Of a stretch of 64,000 nt of DNA, positions 14,068-48,348 are shown one piece after another. The stretch covers positions 372,001 through 436,000 of the forward strand of contig JAQGDQ010000067.1 in the NCBI GenBank assembly GCA_030141605.1, in the 5' to 3' direction. The notes below the pieces were generated by a model, which saw only the letters and a list, made by a program, of their open reading frames with translations, made no database searches and had not been told where the DNA came from. A program made the translations under genes and the position numbers. Every line of letters starts with the position of its first letter. Within the stretch, counting starts at the first letter, position 1. This DNA is from Tubiluchus corallicola. Its lineage: Eukaryota > Priapulida > Priapulimorpha > Priapulimorphida > Tubiluchidae.

Positions 14068-14247
14068 TTATAGACTCGCCAAATCGTCGTGTGTTTGTAT
14101 TTTTAACGTTAACTTTCCTTGCTTTGGCTGATCGTCAGCTTTCTTTGGCTGCAGTGGACACTCCAAAATCCGAGTTTGATTATCTACTGGTGCATCAATG
14201 CTAACTTTTCCCATGAATTGGTCCACAACAGGGTTTTTGTTCCACAC
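14068..14247 (-). CDS. CAPN5: Calpain exon 12: end of C2 domain and stop
   Basis: Residues 584-642. It opens [17 protein letters not shown], matching the C2 strand that reads VWN...DEFLG in CAPN5, and ends THDDLASL before TAA at 14070-14068. The acceptor GGTAG precedes 14247. Phase 0 entry matches exon 11. Confidence 0.95.
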   Translation of the reverse strand: MWNKNPVVDQFMGKVSIDAPVDNQTRILECPLQPKKADDQPKQGKLTLKIQTHDDLASL

Positions 14248-17200
14248 CTACCATAAAGATATTATCTTAATGTTAGCTTCACTAAATTAGCCCAACCTAG
14301 TCTTCTACTGCTCAATCGTATTTGAATAATATTCGACTGCTTAATCTGTTAATCTCTGTCTTATTTTACCATACAACAGACTGCACTTTTGTAAAATAAG
14401 ATAATTATATACTTTGTATTTTTATAAAATAACTGGCTTTATTGTGTGAGTTAACTCTCTGCATAGCTGTTGAAATCAATAAATATTACTACTACATAGT
14501 ACTATAATTATTACCTCTATTTCAATAGGCTTATTAACATCTTTGCGGTAAAATATAGCAGTAGCCATATCCCACGAAGGATTCAATGAATCGGATACTG
14601 TGGGAGTTTTAACTTTTTTCTTGCCACATTTAATGATGCAGTAAGGGTCAGCTCCTATAATAAAAGAATTAAAAATTTTAAGTATAGCTCTTATGTAACA
14701 TATCTACATTAGTGCTATTTATGTTTTTGTTGAGAGAAAGATAGCTAAATATTATAATTACATTAGAATAATGGTTTGGCAAAAGTTTTATAGAGACACA
14801 ATGAAAAACTGCACTTACCTTAAATCTAAGTTTTTAACACATTTACATGATACTTCTAGTATTAGGCATTACGTTCTAATTTTGATGCAGAATGATTTTG
14901 GTATTAAATGAAACACAGAATATAAATAATAAAAGTTCGATTACAATTTTCATTTATATTTTTAAAATATGTACTAGCCACAACTTTAAAACAAAAAGTG
15001 AAGCAAATGTATTAGTCCAAAATACTAGTGAAGATAATCAGTAATATTTCGTGATTTTTACAACTACAGGCAGCAAATGTTAAACTACAGCCATTAAACA
15101 ATAGGCATTTTCTACTGAAAACCAAAGTGAAGCATTTATTCCAACCTCCTTCATCTCTGTCTTGCTTCTCCAAATCTGATGCAGAACGACAAGTAACAAC
15201 AACTACAGAGCTTGGCATTGAGATACATGGCCATATGCTAGGCTGAGGAACTTCATGTATCAACTCTCTAAAAACACAGAATAGCATGCAAACAACCCAT
15301 GCTGCTAATAGTGGTGAATAATGAAAATGAAATCACAGAAGATGAAGCACATCAAATGTGTAGCTGAGACATGCCATGTTTATTTTGTTGTACCGAGTGA
15401 AGCACAAAAAATACGACACTGTTTCAACTTTCTTAATGCACCTTTTCAATAAACATTTTTAATGCAACAGTTTAGAGATCAGTACTAAAAACTGACACTT
15501 GCTTGAATGGTTTCATTGCCATTACTAAATTAGATGAACCATTACCTAAAACTACTTTTTTGTAATTAAACAATTGACAACAAATTACTTATTGCAATAC
15601 TAAATGCTCTTTATTAGAAAGCCTACAAAGCTACAGTAACGGTACTCTAGTTTTTTTGTTAAAACTTTCAAGAAAACTTTATATGCTACAGAAGACAAAT
15701 TGCATGAGCATTCGAAAATATCAAAGAAGTCTGTAAAATCCATGATTCAGTAGTAATTTGGAGAGGTCAGACCAAAACAAACCAGAACAATGCCTGTATG
15801 TGAAAAAAAAATCAGCATTCCAACTGAAGCTGCTGTATTTAAAATGGAGGTATCATAGTTTACAGTGTGTATACATGAGGTCAGATATGCTTCCTCTGCT
15901 GGCAGACACAGCAAACCCGACAATGGTAGACACAAAACATGAAAGCCATTTGCAGGAAAACTGACAGACATATTGATGTGAGTTTTGTCTGCTAAGTGCT
16001 AACATCCACTCTGCTGCACTTTTGTTTCACAATAAAATTAGGTCAAGCAGCGCAATAACTCTGACTGTTACAGTGGATTACTCAGACTCTACACTTATAT
16101 TCCAGATAAGCTGCATTGACCGTCACAGTGGATTCCTCAGACAATAAATATACATTCCAGATAAACCGCACTGACCATCACAGTGAATTCCTCAGACAAC
16201 GAATCTACATTCCAGATAGACCCCATTGGATGTGTACTGAACTGTGCAAAATATGGTAATTTGTAAGTTTTGATTTTATATTTTTTGAGAAAAAACTGTA
16301 AATTATAATAAAAAATTTCTTACTGCATTTTAGCCATTTGAATTAGTAAATGATATTGCAATTAGGGATGTTAAATGATACAAATTTGGCAATACGATAT
16401 TTTTTCCAAAAAAATATCTATGATAATTTGGATACAAATGGTACATTACATTTACACCTACACATTTACGCATTTAATGTACATGTATACTACTTATGCA
16501 TTTTAAGGTACAATCCTGTAGATTAAAGCTATGTAACGACTTTAAACTTGGACATGATTGATCCAGCTTGCCTTCAACACTACTCACCAGACACCAACTT
16601 ACGTCACCTTTTTTCAAATAATGCCGGCAGCGATTTTCATTTGGCATTTCTTTTACATTTTTAAGCAAAGCGTTCTATGCGCATATATTGTGTGGTGATT
16701 TCAATATTTTTAATTATACATTAAAATGCAATAATTGTTGTTCGAAGATTGGTTCTTCCTTTAAGTACTTCAGTGTGTTCAGTGCTGTATACTTAAATGG
16801 CTGCTAGCTAAGAAACATAATTTTGTTTGTCATAATGATTCATAAATAAGTAAGTTGCAACAGGTAAATATATGACTGTGACAAAACTATTTGTCTGTGC
16901 GTGCTACTGACAAATTGTCACTAAAAATACTGTCAGTAAATCCCTAATTGCAATTCAAGAATTCATGTTTTCATGGTTCACAATTTTTTCAACTAAAACT
17001 CTTGTTGTTTAAATACACCTAAACTATTTTGTAGATTAGCTCACATTATCAGATATAAAAGAAATACTACTGAATCTAAAAATTTGATTTTACCAAACAA
17101 GAAAATGATTTTTCTCTCAAGTCTGAACTGGCCGAATTTCAAATACTTATATAAAAAACAACTTTTCGTGTTGTGTACTGGACTGTACCAAGAGCAACTT

Positions 17201-18208
17201 TACCAATTTAAATTGTGTTCGATTTTTTGCGCTACCCGGCAGCTCTAACTTCTATGTATATTTTTAAAACACATATTTAAAAAACAAATTTGTATTACAA
17301 AAAGCCATGCTACATTCCTGATGATTACAAAAATGTACAGGTACAATGATAGCAAAAAATGAAACCAGAATACATGCAAGCTAGATTTGCACTTCACATG
17401 CATTATATAACCATGCTAAAGCATCAGTAGCCACATTCAAAAATGTAATCAGATAAAGGCATTTAAAATTTCAAACATGCACTGCTCTACCTCCTGACCA
17501 ATCTTGTTTCTCCAGAGCTCGACAGTGCTCTACACAAACCACAGATACACAGCGTGCAGTGCCGCTACAGCATGGTATTCTACTAGGAGGTGGTACATCT
17601 CTTATTAACTCCCTACATGGTTAATGAAATAAAGTTAAAAAATGTACTGAACTGCAAGTCCAGCAGCAAGGCATGTAAAAACTGTATGATATTTCTTTTC
17701 TTCCACATACTACAGCCTTTAATATGTCTTTACTACCCAATCAACCAACAACTTAATAATGGTAATAAGATCATAAACTGTTTAAGTAACATACTGCTTA
17801 CTGACAAGGATACCTAAAAAAACATTTAAATAGACTACAGTGCTGTCACTGAGCACCAATATAACTGACCAACAAAAAACCCCATAGTGTGGATACATAA
17901 TACAAACATTGTGTTTGTCTTACTACAGTGTCCATGCTACAGTGCATTCAGAACCTGTGACTCTTGAGTTTGAACTTGCAAAGTCAAACAGCGTGAAATA
18001 TGACATTATCAACACTAACAATATCGTACATCTCACACCATTTTGAAAACACACAGCAGTTTTAAAGTCAAATAGTCATTCATATACCCAACAAAGCCAA
18101 AACTGAATCAAAGGAGAAGAACCGTACTCAGCTTACCTGTCAAATTTCAGCCGTATATTTTAACAATCGAGCTACAGATTGTCCACGTATGCACGCATGA
18201 CACACACA

Positions 18209-18267
<59 letters not shown>

Positions 18268-21200
18268 ACACATCCTCTCACCCACTCACAGATCAGACCG
18301 ATTGCTCTAATTCTTCTTACTTGTCTCTTTGCAGACCTGAAGGTGAGGGAGGGTCAAATACATGAACCTGTACTTTGAAGGGAAGCATCAACTAGACAAA
18401 ACGTGAAAATACAAGCAGGCGATTGCAAAACGTAATATCAGTGATCTTATAAACCCAAAGTTAATTAAATTTTGATAACAAATTTGAAAGACAGAAAATG
18501 AGAAAAAAATAAGATGCAACAGGAATTTGAACCAGAGACCATTGCAAATGTTTTAGACCATTAGGCCTATAAGACCACTAGGTCATTGATCATTGGGAAT
18601 AAGGGATTGCTTGGATGCAATACTTGCTGTAAGCTGTTTTATTCCACTAAATATTGATTATTAGGGCTGTTTGCCTCATTGAGGGAAACAATTGAACATA
18701 GCAAACATACTTGATGCCTTTGATCAGTAGCTGATCTAAGAGGGCCAGTCTTGATAATGCACTAGGTTTGGGTCCTGCCACTAACATGTTTAGTAGGTCT
18801 GCCATTGAATGCTGGATTCCGGCTTGTAGTGTGATGAATCTCATAAAAAGATAAATAATGCACACACTGAGCAGATAGTGTTTGTGGCCTTGTTGGGGGA
18901 AATTACCTTACACAACGTTATGAATTTATAATACAGGAAGGAAACATGATATTCCAGTAAAAAGTTTTCAACTAGGCAACATCATTTTCAAAATCCAGTT
19001 ATAGCACACTTAATAATGTGGATTCACTGAATGAGAAAATTGGACTTACTTGCAATCGCTAGCCTGACTCGTAAACAATCTGAGCATAAATTCCCCATCT
19101 TCATTTGGTTCAAAAGTCGTGGGAACTAAGATGTATGTGCCTTTCTTCAATGTTAAACGACTGAACACAGATCTAGTACGAGCATAAACTGAATCACCAG
19201 CTTTTTCGTGAATGTTGTGTAACCTGTATTTTCGATTAAGTTCAGCCTACACATAAACAAAAGTTTCTTTCAGTTTAAAAGTTACAATGAATATTGTATC
19301 AAATTAAGAAACAAAGAGAAACTTGATGGATTAAAGATCATTTAGTACTTAATATCAAACAAAACAAATAACCAATCAAGAAGTATTTACAAATTACTAG
19401 GCTTGAAGTTTGTGCGATCTCTAAGTGGTTGAAAATTTCAGTAAGACAAAATGTCTGTGCAACAGTTTCATGCTTGTTTTTGCACCCAAAAGACTGATTC
19501 AGTCATCCATTCAAATTCATAGGATCACATTTCACTCTAATGTGTCTACCATCATTACTTATATTTTGTCCACTTTTTTCCCTTCCGTTTCTTTCTTATT
19601 TCCAAGTATTTCTACTTTTGCTTGCTCTTAGTGCTGAAAACGTTTTTGAAAGTTAAGAAATCAACTGAAACTTAGGTTCCAACTGCTAGGTCATTATCTT
19701 AATAAAATGGCAGATAAACTTTAATTAAATAAAATGGCTGATAAACTTTAATTAAAAGTATTAGTAGAACATCTTATACTCATTGAATATTAAGCCTCAG
19801 AACAGACATGAAAGTCGTATTACAGTTGAAAAACATGCGTATCACAAGAGAAAAGCACAAGAACATGCCTGATATTATTAATGTAATTTGGTGAATTAAA
19901 ACTTCAATAGAAACAGATTTATGCTAAAAATGCATTATCATTACGATATAAGTGCAGATAATGACCTTCATAATAAAGAATCCAATTGCAAGATTTTTTC
20001 CACCTCCAATAGCTCTACTCTCTCGTGTGTCTCTTTGTGTCAATGAAATCAAAATTTCATCTTCTGGGCTCTCATGGATCTCAAACTTAAACTAATGAAA
20101 AAGTAACAAATAGTAGTAGTAAAAGTAAACTGCAACTACAGTACAATAGTAATAGTAGTCTGTTCCGTTGTAACTAAATATATTACGAAATGTCTTTTTT
20201 GCCAGTTATTTTAATAAGAAATAAAGTAAGAAGTTGTCATGGTATTATAAATAGTTGACTAACTTGCGGGTTTTGCAAAAAAGTGTTTTTGTGGTTGATA
20301 CAACCACCACGCCTGTTTCCACTCCACTGTCCAAATCTCATTGCTTCATGCCACTTCTTTTGCAATGACAGGTAGCGTGTGTTGATCAGTCGACAAATTG
20401 AAACGTCTGTGAAGTTCTGGCAGAAATCTTCCATTGTCATCCTGCAATAAAAACCAATAAAAGTAAGTTTCTCTGCTACAGATGTGCCTACTTGTAGTTT
20501 TTTATTCCTCCAAAAATTTGCAGGTAGAACTATGGTGTTCTTGCTGGAAACAAAAATATATTTTAGCTCTTTTGAGCCAAAAATAGTAGCTATTACCTAC
20601 CATTATTCAATATTACAGTTTATTATATTGCTTACACCCATTTAAATGAAAGTTAACATTGAATTTACTTTTTCTTAAAAAAATACTTTTTAAAAATATG
20701 TATTTACTCGAGCAAATTCTGGCTTTGAATTTACTTGGATCTTAAAGTCAGTCCAGAATTGGAATGATTATTAAAAAATCTTACAGTAAAAAAATGAAAA
20801 GTAGTGGCATTTCAATACACGACTGTGTACTATCTTCAGATGAAAGAAAAGAGAGAACAAAGGTCATTAAATACTAATTATTTTATTTCACAAAAGGCGG
20901 TCACTAACTAACTAATTTTGTGAATGTATTACAAATTATAAAATTCCCAAAAAATATTAATTATTTGGTGATTTATTGGTCTTTTTCTTTCTTCATGAAG
21001 AGTAGAAGTACACACTGCACAGTGCTTCACGTGTTTTTTTCCTCATTGTAAGATTTTTTATTAACAACTAACTGGTGCTGTAAAATTTATATAATAGTTC
21101 AAAGTTTGTTTTAACATATTTCGAGAAGTTAAGATGCTGACATGTATTTTAGATTTTTAGTTTCACATTTCTTTTTTCATGCAACTTAGATGGCTAAAAA

Positions 21201-24200
21201 ATGACATACAGTTGAGCTTACCAGAACTCTCCATCATCCGCTTTAGTTAACCCCAGAGATTCTCTTTGTGCATTACTGATGTTCTGCCATTCAGGATCGC
21301 TAAAGAATTAAGAAATGAAAAGAATTAATATTTAAATTTAATATTAAAAGGGCATGAAGAGTCACAAATATTTATTCATTTAATATAAAAAGGTTGTCTA
21401 ATGTTCTCCATTTTCTAGAAAGACCAAATTACATGCTATAAGCTTAATTATATTATATTATATTAATTGCTGATACTACACTGCATTACACATAGATGTT
21501 TAATTTCTGCTCAGTCCTATGTACTATTGCTTGCTTTGGCTTGTGCTTCAATAAAAAATAAAAGAAGTACCTTACACAAGTGGCTAAGAACAGAAAAAGT
21601 ATGACGTCAGCAAAATAACATGCTCAGAAGTATCCAATTCCTGACATTATACTCTATCTTAACAAATCAACTATTCAACCTTACATGAAAATATCTGTAC
21701 ATGCGAGCTGGTGTTTCAGCTTAATATCTTAACCTAGTTGACAGATGATAACATTATCAAACAAATGAACAATCGAATGTGCTCAACTTCGTAAAAGCAT
21801 TTCAATCGGTTTTGAATTCTGATTTAGGGTCAAGCATGCACCTACTTACAGACTTCTCAAAAGCCAGTTGTTTTGTTAAACACTACTTTCAAAGAAAATG
21901 CTCTTATTGTGTTGTTTTACTGTTCCAAATCAGTTTGCATCTAGTTATCATTTTACTGCCTGCACATGCCTAATTTGCTCTCATAGTTTTGCCTTGGACA
22001 TTCCTAAATATAGCAGCATTGCTTATAAGCTCACATTCTTCATATCTTCATGTTTCTAGGTTTTTCCTCATGCTTCCTAACTGTCGAATTTTTTAACTGA
22101 AAATTTGTTCCCTTGTTGACTACAACCTCTCACACATGAAGACGAATACCAAAAGCATCTTCTACTATTAGCAAATTACTTCTAGGAATTTTCTTATTCT
22201 ACGTTGTGACAAAATAGAAACTGGATTCATTAACAAGCCTATGCCTCTAAAATAACACACTGAACTGAGAGCGATTTCTTAGCTGAGTTCGGATGCAAAT
22301 ATGTCTTCCCTCAAAACCTGCTCCCTCAAACAGCTAGAATCAGCATGGCAATGAAACTTTCCAAAGTGAGCATCGAACCCCCATCTGTTCACTACCAGTC
22401 TTGGCATTGCCTAACTTTGGCCCTTGATGTTAACCCAAAGTACCAAGTTAGTGAAGTACAGTGACTTACATGTAATAAAGCTGATAATTATTGATAAATA
22501 TACAAGGCATTTAAAAAAATTGAACTTACTCATCACTGAAAGCTCCATTCCACTCCTTTTCACCCCAAGGGTTGCGCATGCGAACCATGTAAAGCTTTTC
22601 TTTTGCAGTGTAGCGAAACAAAAATCCTTTGTCTCCGAGGTAAATCTTTTTCACAGCTGTTATGCCGTATGCATGACCTCTTACTAAACCTGAGCTGGTC
22701 CGAGATTCCATCTGCTGAGCAGATTGAACCTTTAAACAATAAAAGTAAATTGAAGTGTTTCACATCACAGCATTTAACGATGTGATACAAACAAAACTTA
22801 AAAGAAATCTTATAAGAAACTTGATCAATGAATTGAGGCTATAAAAACTAAAGCATAAATCCAAAAAAGCCACTTATTCTAGTAAATGATAGTGAAAACA
22901 AATTAATGATACCAACTTAATGGCGTAGCACTTAAGAAAGACAACAATAGTAACATATATCATTGGCTACATACAGCAATGGCACATGACATGAGAGAGG
23001 TACGTTCCCATTCTTTCTGCATTGTCTTATATAAATGATAACGTTTTTCTTCATCATTTGCAAAACCACCTTCTAATAAATTGATGGTTTCTGATACGCC
23101 ACCAGTGAAATCCTCCAGTGCGTCTGACAAATTGCCACCATCTAATGCTTCGTAGCAACCACTCAACCTGAACAGAAATCAATTATCGTAATTAAGCAGC
23201 TTAAGTACAGTCATGTTCTTTGAATTTAGAACAGACGATTGCTATAGAAATGATTTGGAAAGTATCAAAATTCATTTTTACCATATCACAATTGATAAAT
23301 AACTTATAACAGTATCAATAAGAATAATAAAAAGATGAAAAAATCCCACCATAAATTGTTACGATTTACATTTCAATACTGGACATACCGTGACATTAAG
23401 TTAGAGCCATTTCATAATAAAAAGCAAGTAACGCCTTATAATTCTTTACATCATTCCTCTCAGAAATAAAACCTACTGCTCTCTACTGGGTATTACACTT
23501 GTGTGCAAAAAGGCATCCAGTTACTTATGTCATGAATTATATTGTCATCTAGCACTTTTTAATGAACAACAATTAACATAATTCTACATAAAATTAAAAT
23601 TGCGTGCTTTTTTGTTTCAGTGATTTAATTGTAACTTCTTGTAAATGAATTAAGTTTAATTTAATCTAGTTTATTTATAAAATGCCATAAATACAACAAT
23701 GTTATATATTTTACAAAGAAGCTGTTACTACAACAAATGAACAAAATTTAATTTCACCATAAATTGATATATCTGCTGAGGCCAAGAAGGTAGACTTGTA
23801 CAGGACTGAGCAGACGGCTAAATGGAAAGATAAAAAATAAAACGTGCAGGATAAAAAAGCAAAAAATGAAATACAACGGTGGTACTAAGGGTAAAGAAAT
23901 GACAATGAAAAGTGAATGAGATGACGGTGAAAATGAAGATTAGATTCAGATGAGAATGTAAAGGGAAATAGATCAATCAGCAAAAATCAGTAGGAGTCAT
24001 GCCAGGAACTTAATACTTCTATACTTCTTGGTTATTCTTCTTCTTCATTCTTGTATGACATGTGACTAATAAGAGATTACTATACATTATACAGAAAAGA
24101 GTTTGTTAGCACCAGAACTCATTTAACTTTATCAACTAATATGACAGTTTGAGATTATATATCTAGCCTATTAATTAATACAAGACGTTTTAGACTTCTT

Positions 24201-27200
24201 TTATAATTAAGAATAGTATGTTCACATTTAACATAATCAGGTAAATTTCGAACTTCATGTCTGAGGATCATAAAATTTGGTGAACTGCTTAGCAACATTG
24301 GTGCAAACATGCGTGACAATGTATTGATTATAACATGTATTATAGTTTACTTTTAATTTGACAAGAGTAATGAAGAAATTGGGAAAGAATTTATTATTAG
24401 TTTTTATACACGAAGATTGTGGAGTTGTAAAAAATAAATTAGCAATAGTAAAGAAGTTTACATTGTTTGAAATGTGTATCATCTATATGAGAATATTTAG
24501 TTAGTCCAAAAAATAAAAGAGGAAATTTTCTCTGGAGTGATCATAAAGGATTTAGATTTGTTGTATAAGTAATTCTCCAAAGACAACTGACATGATTTAA
24601 TTACGGACAGACTAAAGCATAGTAGAGGGGTAAGTAAATGTGAAGAAGATCTTTTTTATAGGAGATATGATTCCAATATTTTTACCAATTTTAAGGCTAA
24701 TCATTTTTATGTGGGCATTCCAGTCGAGATGCTCATGTAAAATTATACCTCAAAATTTAGTGGATGTAACTCTTTCGATGTGAAGCCCAATGTAAAGATT
24801 AAAATTAGGGGGAGTTTTTTGTTTCCAGATCGGAATAATATATATTTGCTTTTACTAGGATTTAATTGCAATTTGTTGGCTTTAAACCAGTTCGATATAT
24901 TAATTAAACTATCATTTATGTTGTTCATACTAAAGTTATTAAAGTCAAAGAAAAGTGTGGTATCATCAGCAAATTGGACAATATTGGGACAGCTAAAAAG
25001 ATTTTGTATATCATTAATGTAGATCAAAATAAAAGCGGCCCCAAGATCGACCCTTGGGGAACACCACAATTTATAAATAGTTCATTTGATGTGAAGTCGT
25101 TGCACCTGACACATTGGGTGCGATTATTTAAGTAGCTGTTTAACCACGAATATGTGATCCCCCTAAAGCCATAAAAGGACAATTTATGAAGTAAAGAAGC
25201 CGGCTGCAATGGAAATATGTTCATATACAGTTGGATATACAGTTTTGCACACAGTTATCAGAGGTAAGTCAACTGAGCAGTTTTTCCTAAAACCAAATTG
25301 TTTCTCATTCAGTATACTCCGATTAGTTAAATAGCTATACATTTCATTATAAACCGAACGTTCAAAAATTTTGGAAAAAAATGGGAGTAGAGAAATTGGT
25401 CTATGAATTGTTTATTGGATTACCATATTTCAATAAAAGTATGACAACAGCTTTCTTAAGATCGTCTAGCACAACACCAGCAGATGAGAGTCATTTACCA
25501 GATGACTGAGAAGAACTGAAAAAGACTAAATGACATCAGAGACAATTTCTGAGGAAAGGTTGAAGATATCAGTACTTTTACTACAATTGAGGGATCTACC
25601 TATTTTACAAATGTGTTTGGATGTAAAAGGACTGATTGTAATTTCCATGTAAAAATTGATTATAACTAATAAAATCAGAATTAATTTGATTTGAAAGATC
25701 AGATCCTATTTTAGTAAAATAACTATTAAAATTAATGGTCACAGAATCGACATTTGAAATGAGTTTGTTGTTTATATTTAACTTAATACGATTTTCCTAT
25801 ATTCATATTTCCTTCATTGTGTCCCGTGTCTTTTAATATTACTTTTATATTTGACTAGCATGGATTTACAAAAATTAGATTTAGCAGTTTTAATTAAATT
25901 GTTTAATGTGTTTTGCACCTTTTATAATTGACAATATTATCGGGATTGGAGTCACGTAAACATGATTTGTACAAATTATTTTTATCTGTAATGAAGTGAA
26001 GTAAAGCATTAGTTAGCCAAGGTTTTCTTATTCTTAGAGTAAGTCTTAGAGAACTTAGGAAAAGAATAAAAGCAAGATTAGGATAATTAGTATTATAAAT
26101 ATCAACCCACGATTCCTGCGATAAATCAGCAGTTAAGGACTGTTTTCGCATTATATGAAGTATTACAGGAAGTTGGATATCTTAAATTGGTAAAAGTAAA
26201 ATTAGGTAAGTGGTCAGGAATATCCAAAAGCAAATTACCAGAATAGTAGTCATAGCCGAGCAAAATGACAAAAATGTTGTCTATTAAAGTAGAATATTCA
26301 GTTATTCTAGTAGCTTCAGTAATAGTTGGAAATAGGCAATTAGAAAGCATAAAGTCAAGGAAATATTTAGTATTATTACGAAGATTGGTTAAAAGATGAT
26401 ATTAAAATAAAATGCGTTTAGATTGAGATTTGATTTTGTTTATTAAATTCGACAATTTATTAACGCATTGTAGTATAGCATTTCAGGGAGGACAATATAT
26501 AGTATCTATGACAAGACTTTTCACAGAGTCATTATGAATTTCAATGAAAATAGTTTCAAGATCATCATTGCAACTTTGTAGATTATTACGAAGAGTGAAT
26601 GACATATCATCTATAATAAGCATAGCAACGCCTCCACCCCCACGATTCTGCCTATTACCACAAACAAAAGTGTATCCAGATAGTGAGAATACTGAACATA
26701 ATTCATCATTTAACCAGGTCTCAGTTAAAGCGATAACTGAAAATTTTGCTTGAAGTATGTACATATAAAGAATCAGTTTTAGCACACAAACTTCGAATAT
26801 TTAGATGCATCATAGAAAAAAGATTTTTGAATGTAAGGTTTGACATAAAAGAATTAAACTGCATATCACCATAATGTTTACTACCGGAAGAAAAATTAAA
26901 TTGGTTAAAAAAATTTCCGTCGAGTCAATACGACTGTTTTTATCAGAACTGGTGTCAAAATTTTCATCGAAAAGTTGCAGCGTAAATTTAAGGTTAGCAA
27001 TAATTAGTCCAACGTTAGATAACCTGGTCAGAATGCAAAATTCGTTGTCATCTTTAATGTGATTAAACGGAAAACAGTCCTGAATACAAATTTCACAATA
27101 CCAAGAATCATTATTAGATGCTATTATGTGGTAATCAGCTATAGTAAGGTCTGTACACCTGAGATTGATCCAAGTTAGAAAGCCTGAAACATTTTGTTCC

Positions 27201-30200
27201 TTCACTGGGATTCCACACTGTCTAGAATACAGTCCTATATACAGATTTCTTAACTGGTCATTCTAATCTAATATAACCATTTTAGACACAGTGCAGCAAT
27301 CTACTGGAGCAACTTTATCAAACAGACTATTTACTGTTTCGTTTATTTTGACTTCCTTCTAAGCAGCTGTGATGTGTAGACATACATACTTTGCGTAAGC
27401 TTTCTCCAGCAGTGCACTCCAAAACTCATTGCGTGACTGAGAATGAATGAAAACGAGTTCACCATTGATTGTTGGAAGTTGATCATCAACAACTACATCA
27501 ATCCACTCTCCCATCCTCCAGAAACGGAAGTGAAATATTCCGGCATATTTTTCTGGATGTTCATCATCCCACTCTTGGTCCTTTTCGTCTGGGATTACCT
27601 ACATTAGTAACTAGAATTATAACCCTTTAACTGCATAACTACACAAATCATCTAAATTGTGTGTTTTTTTCCAGAACTTTTAACAGTCCCAAATTAAATT
27701 ATTTACTTTCAGTTAGCCTAAAAAACACATCTTCTTTATAAATTTTCAAACTTTTCAAGCTTTTTTTTACTGATTGATAGCCTGCTACAGTATATTATTC
27801 CCAAATAGTAAAAGTTCAACTTCTGCATTTAACTTATAATAGTTTAATTATAACTGAAAGCCTATTTGCTCTTTAGCAATTTGGTAAAATATGTTCGTGT
27901 TTTTAGCATAGATGACCGGTAATAAATGCACAGAAGAAAAAAGTCACAATTAATTTATGGCGGCCAGAAAAAAGTCACAGTCACAATTTATTTAGGTACC
28001 ACAAACAATTAATTTTATAAAACAGAAGATTTATTACAGGAACATAAACATTTATGGTTAAAAACGACACAACTTTATTAAAGCTTTTGCTTTAAAAGAT
28101 TTGACAAATTTAAAATGAAGACAGATGCTTTAAAAAAGACCACCAATGATCTTACTAAAAAATTAAACGAGCTAGACAGAAAGCAGGATGATTTAGACCA
28201 GTATGGGCGACGGGTCACCCTCATTATTTCCGGTATACCCCAAGCTAGTGATTATGAAAATACTGACGAAATTGTTTGTCAAGTAGGTCAAGCCCTCAAG
28301 GTGAACATCTGTAAAGGCGACATCTCGATCTCCCATCGATTGCCATGAAAAGAAAGTGCTACAAGACCACCTTAGATTATTGTGAAATTTATAAAACGGA
28401 AAGTAAGAGACTGTTTGTGGCAAAACAAACCCAAGAGAAATGGATCTCTTAAGGCTAGTGATTTAGGGTATGTTTCACATAATCTTGTGTACATTAGTGA
28501 AAGTTTAACTAATCGTAGACGTGTATTACTTAACAAATGTCTCGAACTCAAAAGAAACAAAGTAATCTTGTATGTTTGGACTAAAAATGGCCAGATTTTC
28601 ATCAGGAAAACTGAATCATCTGAACCCTTCCCTGTAAACAATTTTGATGATGTAGATAAATTAAAACACTAATCACTTCTTCACTCGTTTCAATCAATAT
28701 CCCATTGTAATGGTTAGCTTTAATTGTACTAAGTGTAATAAAACTTGTAAAGCAAATCAAAACTCAATTCAATGTGATGTGTGTTCCCTCTGGACACATC
28801 TAAAGTGTACAATGTTGTCTCATCATGATTTGTAAATTTAGCAAGTTCTAATGGCAGTTACTTCTGCCAGCAATGCATTAACGATGTGCTTCCTTTGCAG
28901 TTCATTGATGATGATGAATTTATGGAAATGACTAATCACTATCAATTTTCTAATTTTGTAAAACATTTATCTTGCTTTTCATCAATTTATGACTCTTCTT
29001 CGCTAGTCCACTGTAATAGAGATGATACAGACATCGACAATTATAGACTTCAGTATGACAGCAAATACATTAATCTCGCAAATCTGAGTAGTGATAAATC
29101 CACAGATAAAGCAAACAATGACACATTTATAATACACTTTAACACATCAAGTTTGTGGAAATACTATTCAGACATGACTGATACATTAACACAATTTCAA
29201 AAAATGCCTGAGTTAATAGCGATCTCGGAAACCAGAATTCACGAATCTGACACTTTTTTATGTAACATTCCAGGATATTCTTTCTTACACTATGATTCCA
29301 ATACAGCTGCTGGTGGCGTAGGTGTGTATGTAAAATCTAGCCTCAATTTTAAAATTAAACCTGAATACAAAATAAGAACTTGTAAAAATGTTATTCTTAA
29401 TGGGATTAGTACAACTAGTAGACTAGCACTCGAGGACCTGTGGCTTGAAATTGCTTCCACCGATAACAAAAAATCTTTTATATTTGGAGTAATATATAGG
29501 CATCCAAACACCCCAGTCGAACATTTTCATGATGAATTAGAATCAGTTCTTTGCACCATCAACTCCACAGGCAAACCAGCTTATATATGTGGAGACATTA
29601 ATATAGATTTATATCAACATGATAACAAACCATTTATTAATAAGTATCTCAACATGCTCTTCTCAAATCAATTTACACCAATTATCACGCGACCAAGTAG
29701 AATTACTGCAACGTGACACACCCTAATTGATCATATTTATACTAATAATCTTTCTACACCCATCACATCTGGCATCATTACTAACCCCATTGCGGACCAC
29801 TTGCCAATATTTGCCATTATAAGAAATACTAATCTCCTGCACAACAACATTAAAAAATCAGTCAGATGTACGAGATCATTCAATCAAGGTAACTTTTTAA
29901 GTGAACTTCAAGTTAATATAAGTAACCTAACACTGAATGATGGCAAAGCAGACATACACTCTTACTGCTCACAATTCATGGACTCATTTAAAACATTACT
30001 TGACAAACATGCCCCACTCAAAACGTTATCAAGGAAAAACTCAACTATAGCTAAACCATGGATCACTCCCGGCATTCTCAAATCTATTAAAACAAGAAGC
30101 CGTATGTATACAACACACAAGTTATCCAACTCGCTGTATAAGCAAAATTTATATAAAACATATTCTAACAAACTTAATCACATCAAACATGCATCCAAAA

Positions 30201-36200: not shown

Positions 36201-39200
36201 ATATAGTGTATACAAATGCAGTGTAAGTCACAGTTTTTAAACAGTGAAATTGTCAATAATAAATCTGTAAACTTCCCAGTCAATCAGCGTTTTCTGATTG
36301 ATGTAAAACAGCTGCAGCGTGGTGTGGGCTTGCACCTTTGGATTCGACGACAGCAGTTCCTGGATTTGGCCATAATCCTCTAGAATGAGCCTCCATCTGG
36401 TAATCATCTTACGTGGACTGGACGACTTTGGAGTTTTTGGAGACTTCAGTGGGTGTGGATGGATAACGCACAGCTTCAGGCAGATGGCTTCAACTAGCCT
36501 GCTTGCACTTGGGCACTGAGCTGGCCACACATTGCCTCCAACAAAGCACCTAGAGAATAAAAAACACAAATATTCAATCAAATGAAATAATTGACACGAA
36601 AAAATACAAGAGAAAAAATACAAGAAATAAAAATAAAATAAAATGTTAAACAAAATATACCTTTTAACACTCTCCTGTCCAGGTACAACTTGAGATTTGG
36701 ATCGTGCAAAGCGGCCCTTCGTCAGCTGGGGCTTATGCCGTGGTGGATAATCGATCCGCCTCTTGTCCACATCATGGAGGTCGTTCCACAGTGTAATAAT
36801 GGTTGTCACCTGGGAGTTTGAGAGTGCAGCTGAACCTTTTATCGCAACGAGGTAGTTTGCAAGGTTCTGAACTCGATCATACCCTTCCATTCCTGATGGT
36901 CCCATGAAAACTTCTGGTTGTTGAGTTGAAGTCGAAGGTATGGCTTCACCTAGTTGCACTTCTTGCACTTTCTCTGGCTGCACTTGCACTCTTTCTCCTT
37001 CACCGAAGAACTCATCAAGCTCATCTTTAATCGATGCTAGTATTTGATCTTCAGCTTCGATGTCCTCCGCAGGTTCCAGTACTGCCTCGTCTTCTTCGTC
37101 AACTTCATCTTCTTCTTCATCCTTCACATCAGGGTAAGGTGGCTTCAAGACTTTACCGGTTTGCGAGAAGAGGTATTCTACGCCTATCAGCTCACCTATA
37201 AAAATATATAAATAAAAATCAGACAAAAATAAAAAATTTTTATCAGGCATAATAATGTTAAACTGAATATTTTCCACAAATTAAAGTAATGCAATATTAC
37301 AAACCTGTGTATTTTCCTGGTGCTTGATATGAAGAATCATAATCGCATCCAAAAACCTTCCTGTTCAGTTCATTCACTGTCTGCTTCAACTCACCGCTGA
37401 AAGTCCGTTGAGAAATTTTCGTGGTGGTACTAACTGAAGCAGCAGCCCTATCCTCGTTCCATCTCACAATACCCTCCAACGGGTAGGCTTGGAAATGCGT
37501 TTGATTTGCACTTGTTCCTGAAATTGCAATATATAGAAATTAATACTAAATACCAAAAAGAAGAAGTTTTTGTTAACTGAGCCGTTTTGTTAACTAACAG
37601 TCTTTTGTGCAAAGACGCTAATGACACTCAACGAGCTCCTTTGTTAACTGTTCCTGCCTGCCTCCTGAATAGATTACATGCAAAAAAATTAACTGCAACC
37701 TGACTTTCAGGTAAACACATCTGGACAGGCACGTATTAACAGTCAGAATAATTTAACTTTATGATAAAACTTTAATGATAAAAATATTATTGGGCTACTG
37801 TACCGAAACGCTCATACTGTTCGCATTTATGGCGCGCTGGCCCGCTATTGCGTGTCAAAAAATCGGAAATAAATTTGCTTACCGTTTGCTGTCGAGTTCT
37901 CATGTTTCTCTCTCGAAAGAATGGTAAAAATTTCACACAAAGTGTAAATAATTTGTCGCAAACGCATTTCAAATGTGGCGGTGTGGCGAATCTACAGCGC
38001 GTGCGTGAAATTTGCGTCAGCGCCATCTATTAGAAGAAATTCAAACGAATTCCCATTTTGTCTCAATTTGTCTCAATTGTCTCAATTTCACATTGAAAAT
38101 TGGTGTCCGGGAGGCGCAAAACCGAAACTTGCACTGCTGTTTACTATTCAGAAAAGTCAAGTAATTGTTAAATATAGCTTTAGTATGTGGCATTTCTTTC
38201 TCACAGTCATTTATCATTTAGTTATATAGTCTTTTAGATAAGATGGACTTTTAATAATTCTACAAGATCTTTGAACTGGATCACTATGTACTGTGGATTT
38301 ATTCAGAGTATCACTGTAGAAATTTGATTGAATGTAGATTTCAGCTTCGAGACTGAAAGCATATGAACTTTTTGAGATTTAACTGGTTTGTTTGTGTGAG
38401 AAGGTTTCTCGGAAGAGAGTCTTAGGTCACAACAATTTCTGTGATAAAAAGTTCCATCAGACTCTGCTTGATAAGATCGTTGGTCAATTTGGTCAGTCAC
38501 ATATGCTTTTTTCCATTTATCATTTCCAGGTACTAAAGGTCTCATTCGTACCACCTGACCTTTTTCAAAGGGTTGAAGGTCCTTGCTATGTTCATCATAG
38601 TACCACTTGCTTCTCAAGTTTCTAAGTCTTTTGTTTTGTCGCACTTAATCGCTGTCAATACCCTGAGGTTCAAGAAGACTTGACTTCGTAGGAAGCAATG
38701 TACGAGCTCGTCGTACAAGCATTCTCTGAGCAGGACTGAGCCCAGTATCTTGAGTATTACTATATTCTGTAACTGCTACATATGGATCTCTTCCACTCTC
38801 AACAGCTTTGCGTATTAAATTCATTGCAGTCTTAACAGCAGACTCTGCCATTCCATTACTTTGTCCTAACCTGGAGAGCTTGTTATGTGTTGAAAGTCCC
38901 ATTCTTCTGCAAAACTGGCAAATTGCTGACATGAAAATTGTGGTCCATTGTCCAAAAATACCACACTTGGCGAACCCCACCTTGCAAAATGGTTTTTTAA
39001 CTTCTTTATGACTGATTCTGCCTTCATGTTATATAGGTGGTAAATTTCGCAGAAGTTACTATAATAGCACACAGTAACCATGTAATTGTGACCTTTCAAC
39101 TCAAATAAATCAACGCCAATTTTCTGCCATGGTCTATCTGCAATCTCATGCTGGACGAGTGTTTCCTTCTGTTGTTTACTCGAATACCTACTGCATGTCT

Positions 39201-42200: not shown

Positions 42201-44418
42201 ACTTTTTTACCACTGTGACAAATTTCCATCTCAGCCATGACTGATTTATTGGAATTTTTACTAATTTGCTTAGAACTCACCCGATGATTCCTGTCTGACT
42301 TTGCATATTTACAGTTCTGGGTTGCGATATTGTGCTGATTTTTTTTTCCTTAATGCCGTCACCACTTGAAAATAGCATCATCTGTCTAGGTTTTCCGTAG
42401 ACTGCGTGTACACAGCAGTCTGCTCATCATCTTGACATGCTGCTAACTGTTGCTTAGCCATCTGGTGTGCTATTGCAATCTTTACCGCGAGTTCAAAACT
42501 CAACTGTGCATAGTCTCCTTTGAAAATTTTTTTCGCAAAGACTGACGTCGTTACATTCGAAGATTAGTCATTCGCGTAACATGCTGTCTTTTTCAGTGTT
42601 GAAATCACAGTCCTTCACTAAGACTTTTAGTCGGGCCAGGAATTAGTCAACTGCTTCATCCTTTTGCTATGTACAAAATTTTGTTTTGGCACTGAGAGCA
42701 TTTTTTCTCACATAGAAATATTCATCAAATTGTTTTGTGACTACACTCATATAATCAATTCATTCATCAGAAATGTCTTCAGTGGCCGGGGCCCACGTAA
42801 AACCATTATAAATTTGCTTCAGTTATTCACCTCCTAGGTTAATCAGTAAAGCAACTTCACGTTTATTTTTGAAATTAGCAGCTAACATAAAATATTTGAA
42901 ATCTTGTTTGAATGTTTCCCAGTACTCCTTGTTGTTTCCATCCGCAGAAAGTTTTATCAGTTTTCCTGGATTTAACCCTACCCCGTTTGCCAATGCACAC
43001 TATTACGCTGTAGCAGTAATGTTCAACACTAATAACAGCTGCCCCTGCACATGCAGACACGAAGAAAATAATACGAGAGGTTACATACATTGTTTAAACT
43101 TAATAGTTCTCCACTGGTTTGCCCGTATCACCCACCGTTGCCATCACGTTTTGATATGCCCGACAACACCGCAAATAAGGATAAACACGCAGAAAAGGAT
43201 TAATTAGAAATGATACTTTATATCATCATTTTATGAAACAACAACTTAACAGGTACAGAAACTCTCGAGATGTCGCAGAACACTACATTACCAAAAAGAA
43301 GTCTTATTAAAATAGTATTAAAATAGTGCTGGATATTGTTACAGTATGTCACTTTAATTTTGCTTAGTAACTTTAATGGATTGTGGATTAAGTTTCACAA
43401 TGTGCAGTTGTGTCACTAATAACACAACTGCCACTTAATCGGTATATTTAGAGCAAAATAAACAATCAATCAAACCAATCAATCATAATCAATCAATTAG
43501 TAATTATTTTTGTGCAGTACAGCATAACACTAATGCAGCATAATGTTTGAAAAGCAAACCTCCTTCCAAAGTGCTTTCTCTTGAGCAAGACTTGAACAAG
43601 CAGCAACAAACCAGCAATTTCCCAGACTTCCCTGGCTAACGTCGCCACTACTCGCTCCTTCCACAAACAACTTTGGATTGCTGCAAAGTTCCTAAAAATA
43701 AATTTTCTTAGTTTTACATTTACTATTTTTCTCACGCTTTCATTAAAATTGTTATTGTAGGCAAGGTAATACATGAAACTTAATACATGAAACAAATTAA
43801 ATATTGTTTAGCCAATACCTAGACACTTTAACACCTAATGTGCGCACCAACATGGATATTCTAATCTCTGCAAGAAACAGTCTTTGCAGCACTAGAGGTT
43901 GTCTAGTACTGCAACCAATATTATTTACTTTTTGAGTTTATCTCACTGCATTTTTTTTGCTTAACTTTGCGATGTACAAATATGAATAATTGTTCTCAGA
44001 CTCAGTATAGACTTGAACTGTTTTGAATAAATGAATAACTAGATTAAAAAGATAAAATGTTGAAGAGCAGATTCAACATACACTGTGCAGAATAGGGTAA
44101 TATTCATTTCATATTTATGGTCCTAAAGGTACGGTCCTAAAAACTACATGTTTGTGTAGAAATTAGAATTCCAGTTCACAAATAAATTGTACGAATGCCA
44201 TTTACAGTACAACTGACTATAATAACAGAGATGTAATCATTTACCTTTGGCCTTTTCCATTGGACTCCTCCAACTCGTTGAGAATAAAACAATGATGAAT
44301 CATCAGCAGGAAACTCAGGATCTACAAATAACGTACCAGAATCTGTACATTGTTTCTTCAGTTCATCATATTTCTGATTTTTAAATGGCTTAGGCGAGCT
44401 AAACAGTCCTAAAACCAT
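14068..44418 (-). CDS. CAPN5: Calpain-5/6-type cysteine protease (whole spliced gene)
   Basis: Classical-family calpain with the CAPN5/TRA-3 layout: protease core PC1-PC2, domain III (CBSW), then a C2 domain in place of the penta-EF hand. Coding exons joined on the minus strand: 44418-44245, 43691-43560, 27598-27390, 23167-22975, 22729-22530, 21299-21222, 20441-20264, 20091-19966, 19246-19050, then either 17612-17491 or 15267-15146, then 14654-14515 and 14247-14068. All junctions are GT-AG and phase-consistent, giving 1,929 nt, 642 residues plus stop; CAPN5 proteins are about 640. Catalytic residues are Cys84 (GNCWF), His255 (GHAYG) and Asn289 (NPWG), all intact. Family members are calcium-dependent regulatory proteases with C2-mediated membrane association; that role is inferred. 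Intron 2 is about 16 kb and filled with transposons. RAB6 lies divergently upstream. Confidence 0.96.
14515..14654 (-). CDS. CAPN5: Calpain exon 11: core of C2 domain
   Basis: Residues 537-583. It encodes [15 protein letters not shown] then [16 protein letters not shown], the DPY and NPxW hallmarks of a C2 domain; the IFYRK stretch is typical of CAPN5/6. It begins two bases into a codon (GA), so it needs an upstream exon ending with one base. Both alternative exons supply that base. Confidence 0.95.
15146..15267 (-). CDS. CAPN5: Calpain exon 10b: mutually exclusive exon (distal copy)
   Basis: 122 nt. It encodes [14 protein letters not shown], then [16 protein letters not shown] and EG, the linker from domain III into the first strands of the C2 domain. 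The entry base completes a Lys codon from exon 9 (AA plus A); the exit base plus GA of exon 11 makes Gly. It is homologous to exon 10a: same length, same phases, shared ELI, VP, P-S, PC and LEKQD. The donor is GTTGGA. Because 122 is not a multiple of three, it cannot be spliced together with exon 10a in frame. Confidence 0.9.
15268..17490 (-). other. Intron between the two alternative calpain exons
   Basis: 2.2 kb without coding signal on either strand. It contains the 55-bp tandem repeat at 16063-16227. No further copy of the alternative exon was found here. Confidence 0.7.
16063..16227. repeat. Three tandem 55-bp repeats
   Basis: Three head-to-tail copies start at 16063, 16118 and 16173. 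Each has the core CACAGTGGATTCCTCAGAC (with changes), then ACATTCCAGATA about 15 bp later. They lie in the intron that separates the two mutually exclusive calpain exons. Confidence 0.9.
17491..17612 (-). CDS. CAPN5: Calpain exon 10a: mutually exclusive exon (proximal copy)
   Basis: 122 nt. It encodes [15 protein letters not shown], then [17 protein letters not shown] and WSG. The entry base completes AAG (Lys) from exon 9, and the exit base makes Gly with exon 11. It is markedly richer in Cys than exon 10b and carries a different basic/hydrophobic pattern, so the choice would change the domain III to C2 surface. The acceptor is ATGTAG and the donor GTAGAG. Confidence 0.9.
18211..18271. repeat. 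(CA)n microsatellite
   Basis: About 60 bp of uninterrupted CA dinucleotides in the intron between calpain exons 9 and 10a. The region around it (17613-19049) is otherwise non-coding. Confidence 0.95.
18513..18600 (-). repeat. tRNA-derived SINE
   Basis: On the minus strand a B-box GGTTCAAATTCC (18533-18522) lies downstream of an A-box-like GGCCTAATGGTCTAAAAC (18567-18550). This is the internal promoter layout of tRNA-derived SINEs. The full cloverleaf is not formed. It sits in a calpain intron. Confidence 0.65.
19050..19246 (-). CDS. CAPN5: Calpain exon 9: C-terminal part of domain III
   Basis: Residues 431-495 plus two bases. It encodes [20 protein letters not shown], then [20 protein letters not shown] and [11 protein letters not shown]. 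The LxxGxYxxVPxTFxPxxxGxFxLR pattern is diagnostic for calpain domain III. It ends in AA before GTAAGT, so an exon of the right phase must follow. Confidence 0.96.
19966..20091 (-). CDS. CAPN5: Calpain exon 8: domain III
   Basis: Residues 389-430 (42 codons, phase 0 at both ends). It encodes [20 protein letters not shown] then [15 protein letters not shown]. The LxQxDxR and IGFxIxK blocks are standard in domain III. Confidence 0.95.
20264..20441 (-). CDS. CAPN5: Calpain exon 7: end of protease core into domain III
   Basis: Residues 329-388. It starts by completing the Trp of GEFW and encodes [18 protein letters not shown], then [20 protein letters not shown]. The RGGCxNxxxTFxxNPQ motif marks the start of domain III in calpains. 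Phase 0 exit. Confidence 0.96.
21222..21299 (-). CDS. CAPN5: Calpain exon 6: end of protease subdomain PC2
   Basis: A small exon of 78 nt, residues 303-328 plus two bases. It encodes [20 protein letters not shown], then DDGEF. The final split codon becomes Trp with exon 7. Confidence 0.94.
22530..22729 (-). CDS. CAPN5: Calpain exon 5: catalytic His and Asn
   Basis: Residues 237-302 plus two bases. It encodes [20 protein letters not shown] with catalytic His255, and [19 protein letters not shown] with catalytic Asn289. Both motifs match functional calpains, so the enzyme is predicted to be active. The donor is GTAAGT. Confidence 0.97.
22975..23167 (-). CDS. CAPN5: Calpain exon 4: start of protease subdomain PC2
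   Basis: Residues 172-236. It encodes [20 protein letters not shown], then [16 protein letters not shown] and [14 protein letters not shown]. The GCYEALxGGxxxxALxDFTGG block is the usual PC1/PC2 junction of calpains. The entry base completes Lys172. Confidence 0.97.
23650..27360 (-). mobile_element. LINE (APE-type) in calpain intron 3, sense to the gene
   Basis: A degraded non-LTR element lies in the same direction as calpain. From the 5' side it has a PHD-finger-like Cys segment ([27 protein letters not shown], about 27180-27070). An endonuclease piece follows with [13 protein letters not shown] and [10 protein letters not shown] (26785-26483). Then come linker pieces (26350-25900) and a reverse transcriptase with [13 protein letters not shown] and [11 protein letters not shown] (25224-24743). 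The FADD catalytic motif survives. Several frameshifts are present. Downstream, to about 23650, is a non-coding tail with AATAAA-like signals and a potential stem, CTGCTCAG...CTCAGCAG, near 23775-23815. The 5' end abuts calpain exon 3. Confidence 0.85.
27390..27598 (-). CDS. CAPN5: Calpain exon 3: protease subdomain PC1
   Basis: Residues 103-171 plus two bases. It encodes [20 protein letters not shown], then [20 protein letters not shown] and [16 protein letters not shown]. The WxxGxWxxVVVDDxLP and [13 protein letters not shown] blocks are calpain signatures. The donor GTATGT lies only about 30 nt from recognisable LINE sequence. Confidence 0.97.
28082..28672 (+). pseudogene. LINE ORF1 (coiled coil plus RRM-like), frameshifted
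   Basis: The N-terminal part (28115-28348) reads [19 protein letters not shown], a short coiled coil, then [12 protein letters not shown] and ISISHRLP, the pattern of LINE ORF1 RNA-binding domains. After a frameshift it resumes at 28382 with [20 protein letters not shown] and [20 protein letters not shown], ending at 28672. Such proteins bind the element RNA as a chaperone. Confidence 0.75.
28711..32177 (+). pseudogene. LINE ORF2: PHD finger, endonuclease, reverse transcriptase
   Basis: Starts [14 protein letters not shown] at 28711 with CxxC, CDVC and WTHLKC pairs of a PHD finger, frameshifted near 28833. Endonuclease blocks: [44 protein letters not shown] and, after an in-frame TGA at about 29714, [10 protein letters not shown] and [10 protein letters not shown]. 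Reverse transcriptase blocks: [56 protein letters not shown] and catalytic [10 protein letters not shown]. The thumb has [15 protein letters not shown] local duplication scrambles 31540-31990. The enzyme would nick DNA and prime reverse transcription of the element RNA. Confidence 0.88.
31540..31990 (+). repeat. Rearranged tandem duplication inside LINE ORF2
   Basis: A block of about 145 bp (31567-31716) is nearly identical to 31844-31989, and the short block CCCTCACATTAACTATTGTA occurs before each (31540 and 31719). The order is A-B-A-C-B, where the uninterrupted element should be A-C-B. It breaks the reading frame. Confidence 0.9.
32731..32769 (+). other. Conserved 3' stem-loop of LINE
   Basis: GGGCAGC pairs with GCTGCCC across 39 nt, with an inner GACCATTTGGTC hairpin. 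Closely similar structures occur in two other LINEs at 48855-48893 and 58403-58440. It is a likely recognition signal for the element's own reverse transcriptase. Confidence 0.7.
32851..33011. mobile_element. 161-bp MITE-like inverted repeat
   Basis: TTAAAAAGTTAAAATCATGC starts the left arm (32851) and the right arm (32989-33011) is its complement with one mismatch over 23 bp. The interior is not self-complementary. It adjoins the LINE 3' end directly. Confidence 0.6.
33168..33200 (+). repeat. Interstitial telomere-like repeat
   Basis: Degenerate TTAGGG units: TTAGAG, TTAGGG, TTAGG, TTATGGG, TTAGGG, TTA. About 33 bp, lying about 70 bp outside the left LTR of the gypsy element. Confidence 0.7.
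33269..33450 (-). repeat. 3' LTR of gypsy element
   Basis: About 182 bp, starting on the minus strand TGTAACAATATCC and ending near GGGCATATCC. It aligns along its whole length with 43152-43343, including the block GGTACAGAAACTCTC on the plus strand. Confidence 0.88.
33451..33463 (-). other. Polypurine tract
   Basis: AAAAGAGGAGGGA on the minus strand, immediately upstream of the TGTAACAA start of the 3' LTR. This is the position where plus-strand DNA synthesis is primed in LTR elements. Confidence 0.8.
33990..34235. other. GC-rich island with a T-arm-like motif
   Basis: A sharply GC-rich block in AT-rich surroundings. On the plus strand GCGGGTTCGCGTCCCGC (around 34034-34050) forms a perfect tRNA T-arm with B box. 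A second GGTTCGCACACC lies on the other strand near 34190. No complete cloverleaf could be built. It may be a SINE or one end of the inserted segment. Confidence 0.4.
34437..34877. repeat. Two-copy tandem duplication of about 240 bp
   Basis: Copy 1 (34437-34680) and copy 2 (34681-34877) share TTTCTGGTG, TATTTCGCACTTTATATACT and TGATAGAACAAGATAGACAG. Copy 1 holds about 45 bp not in copy 2. Shorter pieces (CAGTGCAGAAAAAAATACA) recur up to 35090. Confidence 0.85.
35390..35602. repeat. Two-copy 119-bp tandem repeat
   Basis: CCTCAAACGTGCGGCC begins each copy at 35390 and 35509; ACGATTAGTTCTTTC also recurs. It lies just downstream of the stop of the spliced minus-strand gene, in its likely 3' UTR. 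Confidence 0.9.
35649..37903 (-). pseudogene. Spliced gene of unrecognised family inside the gypsy span, one premature stop
   Basis: Five exons fit GT-AG and phase on the minus strand: 37903-37804 ([11 protein letters not shown]), 37517-37305 ([17 protein letters not shown]), 37195-36661, 36549-36273 and 36161-35649. Exon 3 encodes [15 protein letters not shown], a long Glu/Asp-rich stretch, then [17 protein letters not shown]. Exon 4 encodes [20 protein letters not shown] and [17 protein letters not shown]. Exon 5 encodes WLEDVLVRI after a Cys/His cluster: CCKKCG, GHRC and FCPNEG. A TAA at 36095-36093 interrupts exon 5 after 22 codons, but the frame stays open for another 147 codons. The layout recalls uncharacterised repeat-associated zinc-binding proteins of aquatic animals; I cannot name a function. 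Exon 1 and the exon 5 acceptor are the least certain parts. Confidence 0.6.
38303..39429 (-). pseudogene. Gypsy integrase, frameshifted
   Basis: The zinc-binding part reads [20 protein letters not shown] and continues to ACETC (about 39310-39200), the HHCC arrangement. The catalytic core shows the three acidic positions: [25 protein letters not shown] and, after a frameshift near 38900, [13 protein letters not shown]. The C-terminal part (38644-38303) has [19 protein letters not shown]. The enzyme would insert the element's cDNA; stops make it non-functional. Confidence 0.88.
39342..40343 (-). pseudogene. Gypsy reverse transcriptase C-terminus and RNase H
   Basis: The connection region reads [20 protein letters not shown] then [15 protein letters not shown] (40343-40014). 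RNase H follows with [18 protein letters not shown] near 39950, an in-frame stop, [15 protein letters not shown] near 39820, and [15 protein letters not shown] and [15 protein letters not shown] (39788-39590). Order and motifs are those of Ty3/gypsy polyproteins. Confidence 0.85.
40392..41415. mobile_element. 1,024-bp non-autonomous hAT transposon
   Basis: The ends are CAGGGGTGTGCAAA (40392) and its perfect complement TTTGCACACCCCTG (ending 41415). They are flanked by an identical 8-bp duplication, CCATACAG, at 40384-40391 and 41416-41423. The subterminal GCCCGCGGGCC and TGGCCCGC blocks are familiar from hAT elements. Inside, about 50-bp inverted arms (about 40771-40826 and 40869-40921, sharing TCATTTTGACTTGGTTATTT) form a second hairpin. 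There is no transposase. It splits the gypsy reverse transcriptase right after its degenerate active-site block. Confidence 0.93.
41424..41910 (-). pseudogene. Gypsy reverse transcriptase N-terminal half
   Basis: Frame 41910-41680 reads [20 protein letters not shown] then [13 protein letters not shown], the fingers of a gypsy reverse transcriptase. Near 41440 the active-site block reads [12 protein letters not shown], where functional elements carry a DD pair; the second Asp is Asn here, so the copy is dead irrespective of its stops. Confidence 0.8.
42092..42280 (-). pseudogene. Gypsy retropepsin and upstream gag remnant
   Basis: [20 protein letters not shown] carries the DSGA catalytic motif of retroviral-type aspartic proteases. 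Upstream, to about 43100, the minus strand has gag-like pieces in mixed frames with several stops; no zinc knuckle was recognised. Confidence 0.75.
43128..43143 (-). other. Possible primer-binding site
   Basis: TGGCAACGGTGGGTGA lies 8 nt inside the 5' LTR on the minus strand. It starts with TGG as expected for complementarity to a tRNA 3' CCA. The tRNA is not identified and the spacing is longer than usual. Confidence 0.35.
43152..43343 (-). repeat. 5' LTR of gypsy element
   Basis: 192 bp, TGTAACAATATCC at the start and GGGCATATCA at the end on the minus strand, so it has TG...CA termini. It matches 33269-33450 with scattered substitutions and small indels. No clear target-site duplication joins the two outer flanks. 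Confidence 0.88.
43560..43691 (-). CDS. CAPN5: Calpain exon 2: catalytic cysteine
   Basis: Residues 59-102 (44 codons, phase 0 both ends). It encodes [20 protein letters not shown], then [20 protein letters not shown] and LWKE. Cys84 in GNCWF is the nucleophile. The wording of this block is especially close to CAPN5. Donor GTTTGC, acceptor TTTTTAG. Confidence 0.97.
44245..44418 (-). CDS. CAPN5: Calpain exon 1 (coding): start and N-terminal segment
   Basis: ATG at 44418-44416 opens [20 protein letters not shown], then [19 protein letters not shown] and VQWKRPK, the N-terminal signature of calpains. Seven nt upstream is a good acceptor (TTTTCCTTTTGACAG, exon edge 44425), so at least one 5' untranslated exon probably lies further upstream. 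The short N-terminus without a propeptide fits CAPN5. Confidence 0.93.

Positions 44419-48276: not shown

Positions 48277-48278
<2 letters not shown>

Positions 48279-48348
<70 letters not shown>

Follow-up and report, generated by a model that had tools for sequence, protein, structure and literature searches.

Mutually exclusive exons arranged in tandem form an established class of alternative exons (human genes are reviewed in PMC9741552), and pairs controlled by RBFOX proteins have already been described. In egl-15, RBFOX proteins repress exon 5B via UGCAUG in the preceding intron (PMC3585155), and FGFR2 exon 9 is repressed by RBFOX in the same manner (PMC2880598). The U2AF1 exons 3 and Ab are tandem duplicates whose length is not divisible by three; inclusion of both or neither leads to stop codons, and mRNAs with these wrong combinations undergo decay (PMC5224494). 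In OGDH, one copy of the mutually exclusive pair 4a/4b carries a calcium-binding motif, and splicing sets the calcium response of the protein (PMC9177970).

The exon pair described here lies in a calpain gene of the priapulid Tubiluchus corallicola, within a 64-kb stretch of genomic DNA that was analyzed as a whole and is referred to as the window. It resembles egl-15 as a predicted mutually exclusive pair with UGCAUG before the second exon, where RBFOX repression favors the first (PMC3585155), but the gene is a different one, three extra sites are found behind the first calpain exon, and the action of RBFOX on the calpain is predicted only. As in FGFR2 exons 8/9 (IIIb/IIIc), UGCAUG is found between the exons, in a position to act against the second, whereas FGFR2 also needs ESRP and GU-rich elements and encodes a receptor, not a protease (PMC2880598). 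Similar to U2AF1, the length of the duplicated exons makes the wrong combinations run into stop codons; however, the calpain exons are 122 nt long and decay is only expected, whereas the U2AF1 exons are 67 nt long and under weak branch point control (PMC5224494). Finally, the likeness to OGDH is in a calcium-related site placed in an exclusive exon, with the difference that OGDH carries a short DADLD motif and the calpain a C2 loop on which a calcium effect is only proposed (PMC9177970). The reading that we favor, with a probability of about 0.7, is that of a duplicated exon 10 pair used one copy at a time, with the choice probably made by RBFOX and the reading frame acting as a filter.

A single CAPN5-type gene with two versions of exon 10

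A single calpain gene occupies the minus strand from 44418 to 14068 of the window. Its 12 coding exons, with either 10a or 10b as exon 10, are joined at GT/AG borders to give one open frame of 642 codons (Table 1). The gene had been called a CAPN5-type calpain from its letters alone, and database searches bear this out: the closest match of the protease core is human calpain-5 (PDB 6p3q, E 8e-122; next calpain 7e-82), and Pfam detects only Peptidase_C2, Calpain_III, and a C-terminal C2 domain in the spliced protein, with no EF-hand domain. Human CAPN5 has the same domain order and aligns exon by exon up to the C-terminus of the protein (the core of the query sequence agrees with 6p3q). The motifs GNCWF, GHAY, and RNPWG are all present in the spliced frame. 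They hold the catalytic Cys, His, and Asn, a set that marks the protein as CAPN5-like rather than CAPN6-like.

Searches of the 343.5-Mb genome assembly detected neither a second CAPN5 gene nor another C2 region of the CAPN5 type. The calpain on C2250 was considered as a second CAPN5 gene and rejected, as it comes without matching C2 exons. No further copy of this genomic region is present in the assembly, the other matches being due to a dispersed repeat at ~16460-16900.

Table 1 Coding exons of the calpain gene and RBFOX-type motifs around exons 10a and 10b (positions in the window)
Feature	Position	Strand	Remark
Coding exon 1	44245..44418	-	starts with ATG
Coding exon 2	43560..43691	-	catalytic Cys region
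Coding exon 3	27390..27598	-	
Coding exon 4	22975..23167	-	
Coding exon 5	22530..22729	-	catalytic His and Asn region
Coding exon 6	21222..21299	-	
Coding exon 7	20264..20441	-	
Coding exon 8	19966..20091	-	domain III
Coding exon 9	19050..19246	-	last part of domain III; exit phase 2
Exon 10a	17491..17612	-	122 nt; encodes linker, first strand of C2, and calcium loop 1 up to its middle; Asp spacing canonical
TGCATG (RBFOX-type)	17476..17481	-	intronic, 9 nt downstream of 10a
TGCATG (RBFOX-type)	17397..17402	-	intronic, 88 nt downstream of 10a
TGCATG (RBFOX-type)	17373..17378	-	intronic, 112 nt downstream of 10a
TGCATG (RBFOX-type)	15285..15290	-	17 nt before 10b, in the acceptor region
Exon 10b	15146..15267	-	122 nt; homologue of 10a; loop 1 longer by one residue and more acidic
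Coding exon 11	14515..14654	-	C2 domain
Coding exon 12	14068..14247	-	remainder of C2 domain, with stop codon

Reading frame of the possible exon combinations

The sequence-only reading had placed two exons of equal length and equal phases at these coordinates, and both were found as claimed, each with AG before and GT after it. Exon 9 ends in AA; each copy of exon 10 completes this Lys codon and passes a single base on to exon 11. Exons 9 and 11 are connected in frame by either copy, again as had been read: 9-10a-11 and 9-10b-11 both give 642 amino acids and end at the same stop. The predicted dead ends were reproduced as well. Double inclusion gives GAG AGT TGA, with a stop after residue 538, and double skipping gives AAG AGC TGA (SDCK-S-stop), with a stop after residue 497. 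The location of the former stop needs correction: it had been put before the C2 domain and is actually just inside it. We would expect the double-inclusion mRNA to decay, because over 100 nt separate its stop, near the start of 10b, from the following junction. The pair had also been termed frame-locked. This is right insofar as double or no inclusion stops early, but the frame is a filter that works after splicing, not a chooser between the exons, and it is not absolute, since 10b has an additional AG at +2.

Several mechanisms known to enforce exclusion were tried. Crowding and splice-site incompatibility do not force it, because the intron between 10a and 10b measures 2,223 nt, and the donors, U2-type without exception, leave no U2/U12 incompatibility. 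Intron pairing as in insect clusters was also rejected, the best duplexes being no better than those of shuffled sequences in a coarse test with 20 shuffles. A short intron, U2/U12 incompatibility, and intron pairing are not required for membership in the class of mutually exclusive exons.

RBFOX-type motifs between the two exons

The hexamer TGCATG (UGCAUG in RNA) is the site of RBFOX splicing factors, and RBFOX sites after an exon usually promote that exon. It was found on the inner flanks of the pair (Table 1), where the sequence-only reading had not pointed it out, and not in the outer flanks (300 nt before 10a and 300 nt after 10b). No hexamer other than TGCATG and GCATGT, its overlapping shift, has three occurrences within the 120 nt downstream of 10a. 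Under a first-order model, 0.05 occurrences of TGCATG are expected in that stretch (P 2.5e-5), and one site 17 nt before 10b has a P of 0.015 for a 40-nt stretch, both values being optimistic because the first two sites were spotted by eye before counting. The background is 0.41 TGCATG per kb and strand. Among 355 kb of strand sequence including the window, clusters of three in 120 nt were found at the 10a site, at an unrelated locus, at an RBFOX-like locus, and in one microsatellite; from the spans of the clusters, we estimate their frequency at roughly 2e-4 per position. The microsatellite, at ~48242-48577, consists of a CA-repeat followed by several TGCATG units (48346-48373), and thus such clusters can arise from simple repeats. 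One TGCATG also lies 38 nt downstream of coding exon 6 of this calpain gene.

The donors of 10a and 10b are among the weaker of the gene (4.6 and 3.4 bits, vs 9.5 for exon 9), that of 10a reading GTAGAG, as for exons whose inclusion is regulated. RBFOX-like RRM exons are present at two genome loci, C1874 and C266, and are 77-85% identical to the human RRM. A cluster of three TGCATG within 92 nt, starting at position 444 of L027, lies near an RRM exon of an RBFOX-like gene and would fit RBFOX self-regulation.

The best-surviving alternative also takes both exons as functional and exclusive, and leaves the choice to other factors or to splice-site competition, at random or by tissue, with decay clearing the rest. 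We regard it as possible, at somewhat better than one chance in four. The frame logic is enough by itself to let through only proteins with a single copy, the 67-nt exon pair of U2AF1 works with such a filter (PMC5224494), and at the background density given above, a TGCATG is not rare by chance. It is the number and position of the sites, confined to the inner flanks, that argue against it. Provided that both exons are functional and alternative, the placement of the motifs makes RBFOX-type control reasonably probable.

Under RBFOX control, the weak donor of 10a would be assisted by the sites directly downstream of it, and the TGCATG in the acceptor region of 10b would let RBFOX block that exon. 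Cells with RBFOX would make 10a, and other cells 10b. From this arrangement, RBFOX should raise 10a and lower 10b simultaneously, a prediction open to direct testing since it names the regulator, the sites, and which way the effect should go.

Two repeats were also observed around the pair. The dispersed repeat at ~16460-16900, between 10a and 10b, has about 40 scored copies in the genome at 75-93% identity and does not include the TGCATG sites. A CA/TG microsatellite at ~18203-18260, about 600 nt before exon 10a, gives UG repeats in the transcript; UG repeats can bind CELF-type splicing factors.

Both copies of exon 10 are retained

The peptides of 10a and 10b had been described as homologous, and the comparison leaves little doubt on this point: they share 45% identity, match each other with a tblastn E of 9e-6 within the window, and score 8 SD above shuffled peptides (0/5000). 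At the DNA level, identity is 49% over aligned codons, and the NG86 method gives a dN of 0.69 and a dS of 2.6, which is saturated, for a ratio of about 0.26, as under purifying selection. Within the alignment, the copies differ in length by whole codons only, and these differences balance each other; all four splice borders are intact. When the drift of exon copies to the same DNA divergence was simulated without selection, the frame was still open in 8% of runs, and the observed amino-acid similarity was reached in 0/8000. Saturated dS, whole-codon length changes, and drift runs that never match the similarity indicate that both copies are old and have been retained as coding sequence. Neither a third copy of exon 10 nor duplicates of other calpain exons occur in the window. 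The comparison confirms 10a and 10b as an adjacent and tandem-duplicated pair of homologous exons in equal phases.

This evidence bears on a second alternative, in which one copy is used and the other is an old duplicate, rarely or never spliced and still undecayed. Weak donors on both copies would suit such a history. Yet a bystander exon would have had to keep its frame and its similarity against the odds of the neutral runs, at saturated synonymous divergence, and also to limit its length changes to whole codons, with the four splice borders kept and C2 profile scores equal between the forms. We therefore consider a silent copy improbable, and it is very likely, from these data, that both exons are functional and alternative.

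Exon 10 and the C2 domain

Exon 10 encodes residues ~497-536, and the Pfam C2 match begins at 518-520. It comprises about 20 linker residues, then the first C2 strand, and then the first half of loop 1. The gene had been proposed to make two full-length calpains differing only at the boundary of domain III and C2; two 642-aa products are indeed predicted, but exon 10 reaches into the C2 domain itself. Both forms score alike against the Pfam C2 profile (60.5 and 62.4 bits). Of the contrast drawn between a Cys-rich 10a and a Val-rich 10b, the first half stands, with five Cys in 10a vs two in 10b, and the second does not, as each copy has five Val.

Loop 1 of the 10a form aligns without gaps in this stretch to the C2 domain of MCTP2 (LLAADFSGKSDPF) and has the canonical Asp spacing. 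The Asp pair of loop 1 is present, and its spacing is canonical with 10a only, the 10b loop having one residue more. The swap of 10a and 10b therefore alters a site used by many C2 domains to bind calcium. That it also affects the calcium or membrane binding of this C2 domain is a proposal. The human CAPN5 exon 10 peptide presumably lacks the second loop-1 Asp. Loop 3, encoded by exon 12, reads VWNKNPVVD and has Asn in two positions that are Asp in C2 domains with calcium binding. The acceptor of exon 11 (14652-14657) reads TAGGAG; use of its second AG would drop one Gly from C2 loop 1 and, in the 10b form, bring the Asp spacing back to the six residues of the 10a form.

A comparable second AG lies 2 nt into exon 10b, and 10a joined there stays in frame. 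The two exons could then form a cassette included in one mRNA, coding for a 682-aa protein. We rate the use of this site as unlikely because its GAG acceptor follows a TAG by 2 nt, an arrangement that is normally disfavored. The product would, moreover, carry a second linker and first strand within its C2 domain, and the cassette is very improbable overall. An assembly artefact, with collapsed alleles or a misjoined paralogue placing an extra exon in the intron, has a negligible probability: nothing was found in its favor, the copies are only ~49% identical on aligned codons, and searches of the assembly turned up neither another C2 region of CAPN5 type nor a further copy of this region.

Proposed mechanism and significance

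In the reading that we prefer, exon 10 of a single CAPN5 gene would have been duplicated in tandem to give two alternative exons, both kept by selection. Exons 10a and 10b would be used one at a time to produce two 642-aa calpains with different C2 domains, with an RBFOX protein as the probable chooser. The 122-nt length would filter errors, since double or no inclusion stops early and would then lead to nonsense-mediated decay. We infer the use of both exons from the sequence, and the action of RBFOX from motif placement. A broader view would be that of a long-kept RBFOX switch: cells that express RBFOX, for example in muscle or nerve, would make a calpain-5 with a canonical calcium loop 1 in its C2 domain (10a), other cells would make the version with the changed loop (10b), and cell type would in this way set how or where the enzyme meets membranes. 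This view is tentative and more likely wrong than right.

Mutually exclusive exon pairs were not found for any calpain in the open full-text literature, and the earlier statement that none had been described for CAPN5/6 holds in the same scope. The pair is thus likely the first in a calpain, as judged from the open literature and one animal genome. To our knowledge, vertebrate CAPN5 has one exon at the place of exon 10. In dysferlin, alternative splicing changes the start of the C2A domain and reportedly its calcium dependence (Fuson et al. 2014); this is said to involve an alternative first exon, unlike the tandem internal pair of the calpain. Calpain-5 is linked to inherited eye disease in people, and its C2 domain reportedly contributes to enzyme activation and membrane localization (Bondada et al. 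2021). A natural swap of C2 strand 1 and calcium loop 1 would amount to a ready-made experiment on the role of this domain.

Other features of the locus

An acceptor-like site just 5′ of coding exon 1 suggests an upstream non-coding exon. A search of Rfam returned no match, and mitochondrial COX1 was not found in the assembly. Two of the introns hold what appear by eye to be remnants of mobile elements on the minus strand: broken retrotransposon-like reverse transcriptase and integrase-like frames at ~38300-42400, between coding exons 2 and 3, and broken fragments of a LINE-type reverse transcriptase at ~24200-26900, between coding exons 3 and 4.
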